Shown here in pieces: positions 1 to 64,000 of a stretch of DNA of 64,000 bases. The position numbers and the translations under genes were made by a program. Under the pieces are notes generated by a model. The model had not been told where the DNA came from and ran no database searches. It saw only the letters and a program-made list of their open reading frames with translations. Positions within the stretch are counted from its first letter, which is position 1. Each line of letters begins with the position of its first letter. Source of the stretch: Lacinutrix neustonica (GTDB lineage Bacteria > Bacteroidota > Bacteroidia > Flavobacteriales > Flavobacteriaceae); assembly GCF_026625145.1 (NCBI RefSeq), contig NZ_CP113088.1, positions 1,302,001 through 1,366,000 on the forward strand, written 5' to 3'.

Positions 1-1141
1 CTTCATTAGAAAATGCTGCACGTTTAAATCCAACTAATAAGACACCTATTAATGATCCTACACCTATTGCTGTAGGATTAAAAGCTTCACGAACGATTAA
101 TGCTATAGCGTCATCAATCAATGAGAAATTACTTAAAATGATATATAAACAAGCAACTATATACATAACAGCCATGAATGGAACAACCTTTTCTGTTACT
201 TGAGCGATACGTTTAATACCTCCAATAATAATTATCCCAACCAATACAGCCAAAACAATACCAACAATGGCTCCTGCCGCAGTACTTTGCCAGTCAAACA
301 ATTCTTTTATAACAATAGTTGCTTGGTTAGATTGTGCTGCATTACCTCCTCCAAAAGAGCCTCCAATACAAAATACCGCAAAAACAGCAGCAGCTATTTT
401 ACCAAACGTTTTAAAACCTTTAGCCTTTAAACCTTTACTTATGTAATACATAGGACCTCCATATACGGTTCCGTCTCGGTCCAACATCTCTATATTGCAC
501 ACCTAATGTACATTCTACAAATTTTGTTGACATTCCTAATAAACCACAGATAATCATCCGAATGTTGCTCCTGGACCACCTAAAGCAATCGCTAAAGCTA
601 CACCTGCAATATTACCGTTACCAACAGTTCCCGAAACTGCTGTGGCAAGTGCCTGAAAGTGACTTACCTCTCCATCTGAACTCTCATCTCTAATGGTGTC
701 CACAATATCTCCATCTATCGACAAGTCATCGTTGAGGCTCATATCTTTTTCAACCTTCTCTAGATGTTCTTCAATATCTACATTGGTTAAATCTACACCT
801 TGAGCAATACCGTCTTCTCCATATAGTTCTTTTGCCCCATGCTTTTCTATATCTTCATACTTTCCTCTTACAGTATTAATAGCAGTCCAAAAGTAACGTA
901 TGTTTGGGAACCCAAAATAAATAGTAAAAAATAAAGCACTACCTACCAATAATACAAGTACAAAAGGGATTGTTATGCTATCACTCTGATAAACAGGAAA
1001 GAAAATAACACTTTCGAAGAAATCTGCAACTGGAGAAAAGGCTTGATCTATTTTTTGATCAAGTCCAATTTCTGCCGTGTCTTGTGCGAAATTTAAAAAT
1101 GGCAAAGTTAATGTTAAAAAGGAAAGAAGATATTTCTTCAT
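1..1141 (-). CDS. AGCS family sodium:amino acid (alanine/glycine) symporter, 3' part off the left edge
   Basis: Inner-membrane sodium-coupled amino acid carrier. The N-terminus has a signal-like first helix and a TM segment. An acidic loop of about 60 residues follows, an insertion relative to short bacterial members. Then come SHFQALATA and [19 protein letters not shown], the core AGCS signature. The reading frame breaks twice. At 558-562 the coding strand reads ATTCGGATG where the family needs ATTCTGGATG (one T missing). At 474-479 CCGAGA stands where CC-N-GA is needed (one base extra). After correction the frame continues to position 1 with family-like sequence ([10 protein letters not shown] near the edge). 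Start chosen at 1141, in front of a hydrophobic leader. The missing C-terminus lies outside the window. Confidence 0.85.
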
Positions 1142-1237
1142 AATTAAGTTATATGTTAGTTAATTGTTAATTTTCAAGTGCGCAATATGCAAAAAAATGC
1201 CGACTTTTTAAAGAACCTGTTGTTAAAATGGGGTGTA

Positions 1238-2263
1238 TTAGTCTAAATCGTAAATTGAGTTTAGTTTTCTTACTTGCTCTATTCTGCCTAAAACGATAAT
1301 TTTAGAATGTGGTACTAATTTTATTTCTGCCTCCGGGTTTATTATGTATTCACCATCGCTACCTTTAAAGCCAATGACGGTACACCCCGTTTTATTTCTT
1401 AAATCTAAATCTCTAATCGTACGTACGGTAGTTTTAGTGTTATATAGTTTATCGACATCAATTTCTTCAATATTAACGTTCTCTTCACCGCCAATAGAAA
1501 GATTATCTATAAACTCTATTAAATCCGGAACGACCACTAAGGATGCCATATGATCACCACCAATGCGATCTGGTAGGATGACGTTATTGGCTCCTGCTAA
1601 TTTCAATTTTTTATATGATGTTTCCTGAGAAGCGCGACTAATAATTAACAACTCGTTATTAATTTGTCCGGCTGAAAGGACTACAAATAAATTGTCGGCG
1701 TCATTAGGTAAGGCAGATATTAAAGTATTTGCACGTTCAATTCCGGCTTGAAATAATATCTCATCTTCATTAGCATTACCCAATACAAAAGGAATGAGTT
1801 CATTTTGAAACTTTTCTACAATCTCTTTGTTTTTTTCCACAATAACAAAAGGCTTTTTGTAAGACATCAGCTTATTGGCTGCTTGCTTACCATTGCGACC
1901 GTAACCACAAATAATGGTGTGGTCTTTTAAACTATCGATTTTCTTTTGCATTCTCTTTTGTATTAGATCTTCGTAATTGTTTTTACTTAAAATATATTCA
2001 GTAATAATAGATAACGCATAACCCACGATAACAATACTGGATAATATTAAAAATATAGTGAAAATTTTAGAGGCGTCATCCAAGGGCTGAACTTCCCCAA
2101 AGCCTACCGTTGTAATTGTGATCACCGTCATATAAACAGCGTCAACCCAACTGTAATTAGAAATCGTTCTAAATCCCAACACCCCAATTACCAAAACTAT
2201 AAAAAGTAGAATAAAGGCCGTGTAAATTTTAGATTTGAACAAACGTATTATTGGGTTTATCAT
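1238..2263 (-). CDS. Two-TM potassium channel with RCK (TrkA-N/TrkA-C) domains
   Basis: Ligand-gated K+ channel subunit of the inner membrane. Seen: TM1 near residues 15-30, pore helix and selectivity filter TTVGFGE at about 51-57, TM2 at about 67-90, a Rossmann RCK domain starting at IICGYGRNGKQAA (about 117-128), and a C-terminal TrkA_C-like segment from about 260 to 341. The length (341 aa) is normal for Kch/MthK-like channels and the frame is intact. The next gene upstream (PspC) has the same orientation and is only 7 bp away, so the two are probably cotranscribed. In this family the RCK domain binds NAD(H), nucleotides or Ca2+ and controls opening; which ligand applies here cannot be read from sequence. 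Confidence 0.9.
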   Translation of the reverse strand: MINPIIRLFKSKIYTAFILLFIVLVIGVLGFRTISNYSWVDAVYMTVITITTVGFGEVQPLDDASKIFTIFLILSSIVIVGYALSIITEYILSKNNYEDLIQKRMQKKIDSLKDHTIICGYGRNGKQAANKLMSYKKPFVIVEKNKEIVEKFQNELIPFVLGNANEDEILFQAGIERANTLISALPNDADNLFVVLSAGQINNELLIISRASQETSYKKLKLAGANNVILPDRIGGDHMASLVVVPDLIEFIDNLSIGGEENVNIEEIDVDKLYNTKTTVRTIRDLDLRNKTGCTVIGFKGSDGEYIINPEAEIKLVPHSKIIVLGRIEQVRKLNSIYDLD

Positions 2264-2270
2264 TAGTTTA

Positions 2271-2498
2271 TTATAAATCGAAAACCGATGAGCGTTTGGT
2301 ATATAAAATATCTTTGATGCGCATCCAAAATGCTAAGAATAAGTACAATGCAAAACCAAAACCAAGCGTCACAAATGTTAAGTACATAAATGAGGTGCGT
2401 ACTATTTTTGCGCGAATCCCTAAACGGTCTGCAATACGCTGACAAACATGATAGCCATGTTTTTGGAAGTACAATAAGGGTTTATAAAAAGTTTGCAT
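2271..2498 (-). CDS. PspC domain small membrane protein
   Basis: A 75-residue protein with the PspC arrangement. A short amphipathic N-terminus (RIADRLGIRAKIVRT) is followed by one hydrophobic segment (YLTFVTLGFGFALYLFLAFW) and a basic tail. PspC proteins are inner-membrane partners of the phage-shock envelope stress response in proteobacteria; in Bacteroidota small PspC proteins occur without the rest of the system. No pspA or pspF is seen nearby. It lies immediately upstream of the K+ channel gene and is probably in its operon. The start at 2498 gives the usual length; an alternative in another frame (2263-2445) is a shadow. Confidence 0.75.
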   Translation of the reverse strand: MQTFYKPLLYFQKHGYHVCQRIADRLGIRAKIVRTSFMYLTFVTLGFGFALYLFLAFWMRIKDILYTKRSSVFDL

Positions 2499-62212: not shown

Positions 62213-62447
62213 GTGTTCCGTTTTTAAATTAGTGATCATGTAATGTAATATCTTCACTCAAAAGCGGTTAATGGATTTGCTTAAATTTTTAACGGTATCA
62301 AAATGGAAAAATCATACATCTGTTTATAACATAAACTAAAAACCTTTATCCTTTGAAACTATAAGAGACACTCTTAGCTGAAAAAAAAGATTTTACTGTT
62401 CCCTAAGACCCTTCCGGTTTTAAACTATATTTATAAAAATTTAAAGC

Positions 62448-63176
62448 ATGACTAAAACGGTTACCGAGGCTATAGCCTATAGGCGTTCAACACGCGTGTA
62501 TCTCGACACAGACATAGACAGCGAAAAAGTGAAACACTGTATTTATAATGCCACGCTAGCACCTACTAGCAGTAATTTACAACTTTGGGAATTTTATCAT
62601 GTGACAGATAAAGACACGCTAGCACAATTAGCTAGAGCCTGTTTTAAGCAGAACGCAGCTAAAACAGCTAAACAATTAGTGATTGTAGTGACCGGAAAAG
62701 ATTTATGGCAAAAGCGTGCTCAAGCGAATTTGTCCTTTTTAGATCAGGTGTATAGCAAACCAAAGTTAACAGACCAAGAGCTGAAACGCAAAAAACAGGC
62801 TACCGACTATTACAGTAAAATAATCCCCACCATTTATATTGATTTTCTAGGTATGTTAGGGTATCTCAAATATTTTATTTTTCAAATCATTGGGCTTTTT
62901 AGACCTATTTACAGACAAGCAAGAGCCAGTGATATGCGTATTGTGGTCCATAAAAGTGCCGCTCTAGCAGCCGAGAATTTCATGCTCAGTATGGCTGAAA
63001 TAGGATACGACACTTGCCCGATGGAAGGGAGTGACACATTAAGAGTGAAGCAAATAATAGGCTTGCCAAGAGGTGCAGAAATTAATATGGTGATTGGTTG
63101 TGGTATTAGAACGCCTGAAGGTATTTATGGACCACGATTTAGAGTGCCATTCGAATCTGTGTATTTTAATGTATAA
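62448..63176 (+). CDS. Nitroreductase-family protein
   Basis: 242 residues, FMN-dependent NAD(P)H nitroreductase fold. Seen: AIAYRRSTRVY (about 8-18), ATLAPTSSNLQLWEFYHV (substrate/FMN loop, NLQ.WEF), AAENFMLSMAEIGYDTCPMEG, and IGCGIRTPEGIYGPRFR at the C-terminus. An insertion with KRKKQATDYYSKIIPTIYIDFLGMLGYLKYF is longer than in simple nitroreductases. The electron acceptor is unknown. The frame is intact. Confidence 0.85.
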   Translation: MTKTVTEAIAYRRSTRVYLDTDIDSEKVKHCIYNATLAPTSSNLQLWEFYHVTDKDTLAQLARACFKQNAAKTAKQLVIVVTGKDLWQKRAQANLSFLDQVYSKPKLTDQELKRKKQATDYYSKIIPTIYIDFLGMLGYLKYFIFQIIGLFRPIYRQARASDMRIVVHKSAALAAENFMLSMAEIGYDTCPMEGSDTLRVKQIIGLPRGAEINMVIGCGIRTPEGIYGPRFRVPFESVYFNV

Positions 63177-63257
63177 CTGACATGTGATTTTATCAGCAAA
63201 AAACTGTAATTTTAACATCATTTATTTTATATTTTTAAATTCCCCAAAACGATTACA

Positions 63258-64000
63258 ATGAAAATATTGGTAACAGGTGGCTTAGGGTATATAGGCTCGC
63301 ACGTGGTTGTAGAACTTCAAAATGAAGGGTTTGATGTGGTCGTTATTGACAACTTATCAAATACCTCTATAGAAGTACTAAAAGGCATCACGGCAATCAC
63401 GAATAAAGAACCCGTATTTGAAAATATCGATTTGAGAGACAAAGCGCTGGTGACTGATTTTTTTAATAGACATCCGAGACGTCTCTAGTGTTATTCATTT
63501 TGCCGCTTCAAAAGCGGTTGGAGAAAGTGTAGAATTACCACTACTATACTATGAAAATAACTTAAATCCTTTAATATACCTCTTACAAGAACTACAAAAA
63601 AAAGCAGCAGCACATTTCATTTTTAGTTCGTCGTGTACGGTTTATGGGCAAGCCGATGAGCTACCTATAACTGAAAACGCTCCCATAAAACCTGCCGAAT
63701 CCCCTTATGGGAACACCAAACAAATAGGCGAAGCCATTATAAAAGACACCAGCAAGGTCACCGCCCATTTAAACTCGATTGCCTTGCGCTATTTTAATCC
63801 CATTGGTGCTCATGACACCGCAAATATTGGGGAATTACCTACGGGAACACCTCAAAATCTAGTCCCATTTATTACGCAAACAGCCATCGGATTAAGAGAA
63901 AAACTCTCTGTTTTTGGTAACGATTATCCCACAAAAGATGGCACTTGCATTAGAGATTACATCCATGTGGTAGACTTAGCTCAAGCGCATGTTACTGCGC
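63258..64000 (+). CDS. galE: UDP-glucose 4-epimerase GalE (frame broken once, 3' part off the right edge)
   Basis: Extended SDR epimerase supplying UDP-galactose for glycan synthesis. Seen: [18 protein letters not shown] (NAD+ motif, about 3-20), [38 protein letters not shown] (catalytic Ser-Tyr region), [11 protein letters not shown] and [21 protein letters not shown] end, which runs past 64000. The break is at 63474-63479 (CATCCGAGACG where CATCC-N-GACG is needed), one extra base. It may supply sugar nucleotides for the surface-polysaccharide cluster at 22-32 kb. Confidence 0.9.

Follow-up and report, generated by a model that had tools for sequence, protein, structure and literature searches.

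In one benchmark, about 70% of nanopore consensus errors are reported to lie at Dcm sites, called with models untrained on that mark (PMC6591954). For native DNA of Neisseria meningitidis read with Oxford Nanopore Technologies (ONT) R10 chemistry, 77 of 103 insertion or deletion (indel) errors are described as lying at a methylated site or one base away, and a polymerase chain reaction (PCR) kit gave no indel errors at methylation sites (PMC12506013). Word-specific errors are also reported in Listeria ONT assemblies, at GCAGC and GCTGG (PMC10687267), and across 32 species, where modification errors at CCRA, RACC and other words involve the confusion of one purine with another (PMC11610573). 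Here we describe a pattern of this kind at the word CCAGA, a reported 5-methylcytosine (m5C) target in N. meningitidis that has been assigned to NEIS0771 with support from MspJI cleavage (PMC7973814, PMC7046676). The subject is a stretch of 64,000 nucleotides, called the window below, which spans positions 1,302,001 to 1,366,000 of the single-contig genome of Lacinutrix neustonica (3,905,328 bases). The deposited consensus very probably misreads CCAGA systematically along this chromosome, most plausibly through a modified base in native nanopore reads. Among the matches listed in our literature searches we found no publication on consensus errors at CCAGA, which does not prove that none exists.

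The assembly has a stated completeness of 84.46% for a closed single contig; 10 of the 12 other genomes of the genus stand at 99-100%. A sequence-only reading of the window had noticed many one-base frame breaks at what it took to be CCNGA, and had preferred systematic sequencing or consensus error to gene decay. That preference is borne out: the changes fall on one word, affect protein and ribosomal RNA (rRNA) genes, differ between copies, and are not seen in three other relatives under the same alignment. Throughout, the comparison reference is G004, the nearest relative compared. The window is collinear with it at 27-46 kb, DNA identity is mostly 82-96% (73% in one stretch), and blocks of at least 300 bases against 200 kb of G004 align 48.8 kb of the window.

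The affected word and its readings

Among the 5-mers of the window, CCAGA has the lowest count relative to expectation (19 against 47.8) and CCGGA the highest (74 against 35.7). For each word in G004 we read off what stands at the same place in L. neustonica, using blocks of at least 300 bases and at least 75% identity (39 blocks, 121,852 columns). The 220 CCAGA sites of G004 appear here as CCGGA (55), CCAGA (25), CCGAGA (21), CCGA (17) and CCGTGA (4), and the remainder is mostly ordinary divergence. One of these five main readings is thus found at 122 sites, 97 of them altered (about 80%) and 25 intact (20%). The commonest change is the same-length substitution of CCGGA for CCAGA, which leaves the frame as it was. 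This class is larger than the frameshift classes, had gone unnoticed in the sequence-only reading, and ranks first in a scan for one-sided 5-mer changes, with 55 cases against 2 in reverse.

Length changes single out the same word. After 30 of the 220 sites with a flank identity below 0.75 were left out, 42 of the remaining 190 CCAGA sites showed a length change, as against 0-4 sites in each of nine control words: CCAGC 0/110, CCAGT 0/137, CCAGG 0/78, GCAGA 1/178, ACAGA 0/232, TCAGA 3/158, CCACA 0/132, CCAAA 1/351 and CCTGA 4/124. The CCNGA rule was rejected as too broad on the counts for CCAGG and CCTGA. Where G004 has CCTGA, the reading here is CCAGA in 5 cases and CCGGA in 15, close to the 17 cases in the opposite direction, a balance expected if most true CCAGA turns up as CCGGA; both the length changes at CCTGA and the 15 substitutions fit a true CCAGA in L. 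neustonica that was then misread. Judged by these alignments, the affected word is CCAGA, not CCNGA, and CCGGA is largely an error product. The estimated survival of CCAGA varies with its flanks, from 0.68 in ACCAGAT through 0.25 in other NCCAGAT and 0.19 in other ACCAGAN to 0.07 elsewhere, the pattern expected from a basecaller.

The same two words are the extremes among the 5-mers of 360 kb sampled along the chromosome, CCAGA by depletion and CCGGA by excess. CCGGA outnumbers CCAGA in 18 of 18 spread 20-kb stretches, and CCAGA outnumbers CCGGA in 10 of 10 stretches of G004. The density of CCAGA per 100 kb is 35.6-39.4 here and 202.5 in G004; a 21-kb locus of Algibacter lectus holds 16 CCAGA and 9 CCGGA, and since the density varies among relatives, survival estimates based on it depend on G004. 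Extreme scores are also seen for CCGAC, CCGAG and ACTGG/CCAGT, which in G004 rank neither with the six lowest 5-mers nor with the six highest; presumably the distorted counts of CCAGA, CCGGA and CCGAGA throw off the Markov expectation for these words. Over the whole genome CCGAGA occurs 1631 times, against 905 for the reversed word, and G011, of the same genus, has 149 against 598. G035, another member of the Flavobacteriaceae, shows the same ratio as L. neustonica (1781 against 982). Because some other Flavobacteriaceae reach this ratio, CCGAGA counts alone are not diagnostic, and the case for error at CCAGA rests on alignments, not on counts.

Three other genomes of the genus, which are more distant from G004 than L. 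neustonica is (77% identity), served as controls against the same G004 stretch, with flanks of at least 0.80, the ends of open reading frames (ORFs) trimmed, and blocks from 70% identity. L. neustonica has 37 frame gaps at CCAGA in 98.7 kb of aligned coding sequence (about 3.75 per 10 kb), and the 43.8 kb aligned for the three controls contain none. Frame gaps at other places show no increase here (2.43 per 10 kb, as against 4.15, 1.68 and 3.45 in the controls). At 109 CCAGA sites of G004, the control genomes have 46 intact words, 2 CCGGA and 1 indel.

Ribosomal RNA, split genes and frame breaks

The rRNA genes carry the same changes. Parts of the rRNA operons read N and were left alone, so that only unmasked parts were compared; there G004 has CCAGA at two 23S sites (three copies each) and at one 16S site (two copies). 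Of the resulting eight site-copies, L. neustonica has seven in altered form (10 rows with duplicates merged, as two G004 16S copies align to each of its own copies). Neither 23S site reads alike in all three copies: the same site is called differently from copy to copy, though these may conceivably be real differences. The 16S site, directly before CTCCTACGGG, reads CCGGA here and CCAGA in the Rfam consensus, where the A and the G are in lower case and so are not among the most conserved letters. At two rRNA operons, two 5S rRNA genes stand in tandem (L135:8552-8999 and L136:6671-7119).

Among protein genes, 37 ORFs of G004 are covered to at least 60% by the window; 23 of them have a frame-changing gap, 16 of these at CCAGA. 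Three split genes count against real biological change. A pyridoxal-phosphate enzyme gene is split into pieces 6176-6715 and 6648-7157 by CCGAGA at 6666-6671 (minus strand), one base longer than in G004, and its pieces match PF00291 at profile positions 2-148 and 148-293 of 295. A DegT-family aminotransferase gene (pieces 29999-30787 and 30735-31100) is broken in the same way by CCGAGA at 30747-30752 (minus), with matches to PF01041 at 4-103 and 103-359 of 360. The sequence-only reading had also named typA as hit. The split is there: CCGTGA at 33451-33456 (minus), again with an extra base against G004, separates pieces 32871-33464 and 33451-34671, one with the GTP-binding domain (GTP_EFTU) and the other with the BipA C-terminal domain (BipA_C). 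The N-terminal piece is 95% identical to that of TypA in A. lectus and Lacinutrix himadriensis, which marks the organism as a marine-type member of the Flavobacteriaceae, here taken as environmental. A TypA with 88% identity to this flavobacterial one also stands on contigs titled Moorena bouillonii, a cyanobacterium, and a Bifidobacterium breve metagenome-assembled genome (L062 and L091); these are likely contamination or mislabelled bins.

All 18 copies of TCTCGG/CCGAGA that had been listed as frame breaks exist, and 14 of them have one extra base against G004. G004 itself reads CCAGA at nine of the 14 and has diverged from it at 474, 9236, 47736, 49520 and 63474. Besides the two gene-splitting sites above, those at which G004 keeps the word lie on the minus strand at 8180-8185, upstream of an FtsX-like permease piece (7375-8151); at 11194-11199, at the end of a fatty acid hydroxylase piece (11185-11802); at 17889-17894, 21801-21806 and 40520-40525; and at 45376-45381, upstream of a piece with an AlaDh/PNT domain (44208-45338); and on the plus strand at 61425-61430. 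The five diverged sites are 474-479 (minus), 9236-9241 (minus), 47736-47741 (minus, between the overlapping ORFs 46727-47800 and 47652-49055, flank identity 0.72), 49520-49525 (plus) and 63474-63479 (plus). Three further listed breaks (50740, 52718 and 60680) are unaligned, and the one at 50058 finds no support, with poor flanks and a three-base gap of the other sign. The total had been put at 21 copies; there are 26 (17 TCTCGG and 9 CCGAGA), the additional ones at 7985, 36558, 40191, 61600 and 62971, of which only 61600-61605 (minus) is a +1 break with an extra base against G004. Of the copies held not to be breaks, 5181 and 9438 align without a gap, and 21358 shows a four-base gap.

The three breaks of CCGTGA type also have one extra base each. 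In addition to the typA site they lie at 14702-14707 (minus), in an amidohydrolase piece (14652-15689), and at 60990-60995 (minus); the positions earlier given as 33450 and 60991 were off by one. Of seven breaks ascribed to a missing base, four lack one base against G004 and the other three are unaligned. The four are CCGA at 558-561 (plus) and 3790-3793 (minus), at both of which G004 reads CCAGA, and at 8343-8346 (minus) and 43478-43481 (minus). Flank identity is 0.65-0.72 at two of these four (0.65 at 558) and 0.90 at 8343. Apart from the protein genes, the window has two Rfam matches above the gathering score, a Flavo-1 RNA at 34805-34891 (minus) and a transfer-messenger RNA at 45949-46343 (plus).

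Explanations and candidate writers

In the explanation we favor, the reads would be nanopore reads of native DNA in which CCAGA carries a modified base, most plausibly 5-methylcytosine next to the base that is miscalled. This mark would shift the signal in a context outside the training of the basecaller. The consensus would then fall to CCGGA, CCGAGA, CCGTGA or CCGA depending on the neighboring bases. The apparent frameshifts arise because three of these readings, CCGAGA, CCGTGA and CCGA, change the length, and most of the apparently broken genes are probably intact in the cell. An error induced by modification is expected to affect one short word over the whole chromosome, in coding and RNA genes, with identical copies differing, and this is what was found. 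Base modification as the cause is suggested by this pattern.

The altered letters do stand in the deposited sequence, and at many sites G004 has the intact word, so the changes could be taken as real, produced by motif-directed mutation or relaxed selection and leaving about half of the well-covered genes truly broken. We consider this very improbable. Gene decay should break genes at more than one word and spare essential genes and rRNA; here typA is split, rRNA site-copies are altered and disagree, and outside CCAGA there is no excess of frame gaps. Cytosine deamination was rejected, as its predicted product, CTAGA, stands at only 5 of the 220 sites. In the four placements of the word in which an amino acid changes, none of 40 CCAGA sites is intact (5 CCGGA, 5 with a length change, 30 otherwise different), as against 24 of 135 in the two silent placements; the numbers are small, and the direction is the opposite of selection on real changes. 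One could also suppose that the breaks are real and that programmed frameshifting or RNA editing mends them at the affected words, since breaks of a single kind keep returning to one word, and in genes that the cell should need, typA among them. Such recoding should be confined to translated genes and restore their frame. It fails to explain the untranslated rRNA, which is altered and whose copies disagree. No frameshift is needed for the commonest change, a substitution, and the word is subject to +1 and -1 changes alike. We give it practically no chance.

An error at CCAGA could also have arisen on unmodified DNA, through a fault of the basecaller or polisher, and the smooth dependence on flanks is obtainable from any basecaller fault. 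Such a fault should recur in other assemblies made alike, however, and the word errors described in published reports are specific to strains and become fewer or disappear when the DNA is amplified (PMC10687267, PMC11610573, PMC12506013), which makes this origin improbable. Several observations weigh against misreading of a modified base. With looser flanks (flank identity of at least 0.75), aligned ORFs contain 93 frame-changing gaps. CCAGA accounts for 43 of them, and at 16 more L. neustonica has a CCGA-type word while G004 is without CCAGA; the other 34 involve neither, a number that matches the background in the control-genome comparison. Homopolymer error was rejected because just 1 of the 21 remaining single-base gaps falls in a homopolymer of at least 5. 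The older nanopore signature is thus not seen; recent chemistry, good polishing or another platform could account for its lack. In the Neisseria report, substitutions are described as mostly G/C to A/T and indels as nearly all missing bases (PMC12506013), whereas here the substitution is A to G and, over the 220 sites, extra bases (25) exceed missing ones (17). The Listeria errors, as reported, are mismatches rather than indels (PMC10687267).

Candidate writers of a CCAGA mark were sought in the genome with PF01555, PF02384 and PF00145. There is one cytosine-5 methyltransferase match, a protein of 493 residues with a helix-turn-helix (HTH) domain and PF00145 (E 4.7e-85; TIGR00675), at 2,245,228-2,246,706, followed directly by an HNH-endonuclease ORF of 374 residues; the pair occupies 2,244,100-2,246,706 on the minus strand (L176:349-2955). 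In the 12 other genomes of the genus it has no match above 45% identity, and those found are partial. Plasmids of Acinetobacter and Vitreoscilla carry homologues of 64-65% identity, with an LlaJI-family endonuclease gene next to them and no specificity recorded. Because CCAGA is a known m5C target, we take this enzyme as the leading candidate; its specificity for CCAGA is putative, and the support is circumstantial. It is quite possible, if short of probable, that the misreadings form a usable map of CCAGA modification written by this HTH-fused methyltransferase with its HNH-endonuclease neighbor.

The same artifact may have another writer, an alternative to the cytosine-5 enzyme but not to the artifact. 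An intact type IIG restriction-modification protein of 1014 residues, at 850,025-853,066 (L162), could place N6-methyladenine in CCAGA. It matches the Eco57I, TaqI_C and MmeI domains and the PADLOC type IIG model, and MmeI-like type IIG enzymes recognize short asymmetric words and modify one strand. Errors adjoining N6-methyladenine are also reported (PMC12506013). Across 199 Flavobacteriaceae genomes its best match is in G109 (68% identity over the full length), and G011, the only genome of the same genus in that set, has a remote one (E 1.6e-8); among the homologues the N-terminal part is conserved, and it is towards the C-terminal, specificity part that they differ. What is reported for CCAGA is m5C, however, and the genome has its one cytosine-5 methyltransferase match, so we regard the type IIG protein as a somewhat unlikely writer, though one to be kept in view. 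The genome also has an N6/N4 methyltransferase of 228 residues and a type I HsdM with a short specificity piece; one further ORF from the search we take to be the release-factor methyltransferase PrmC. Type I restriction-modification words have two parts, and HsdM was set aside for that reason.

Consequences and comparison with known systems

The apparently broken genes of this assembly are very probably a well-observed artifact, and the first explanation given for them is right in kind; the present analysis adds a clean account of how one word is read, a test on rRNA and a few candidate enzymes. Claims of gene loss, protein predictions and rRNA comparisons drawn from the assembly would be wrong. 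As CCGGA replaces CCAGA without a frameshift, quality checks based on frameshifts would miss it, while amino acids and rRNA bases change. If the favored explanation is true, the target words of methyltransferases may be readable from public assemblies made of long reads only, without raw signal, by searching for 5-mers that are scarcer than in a close relative and have given way to neighboring words.

Likened by word and class rather than by sequence comparison, NEIS0771 (M.Nme15193ORF2725P) has the same five-base target and belongs to the same class of enzyme as the candidate writer. The main text of the Neisseria ONT report contains no occurrence of CCAGA (PMC12506013). It does describe both substitutions and indels at or beside 5-methylcytosine sites, there strain-dependent and absent with the PCR kit, and in that mixture it resembles what we see. 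The Listeria and 32-species reports likewise concern short, word-specific errors in ONT assemblies, but there the errors are described as mainly substitutions and the words are others (PMC10687267, PMC11610573). The Dcm-site errors differ in word and organism, and a nanopore origin is for L. neustonica only inferred; like the present case as we read it, they involve a single m5C word, CCAGG/CCTGG, which is one base from CCAGA (PMC6591954).

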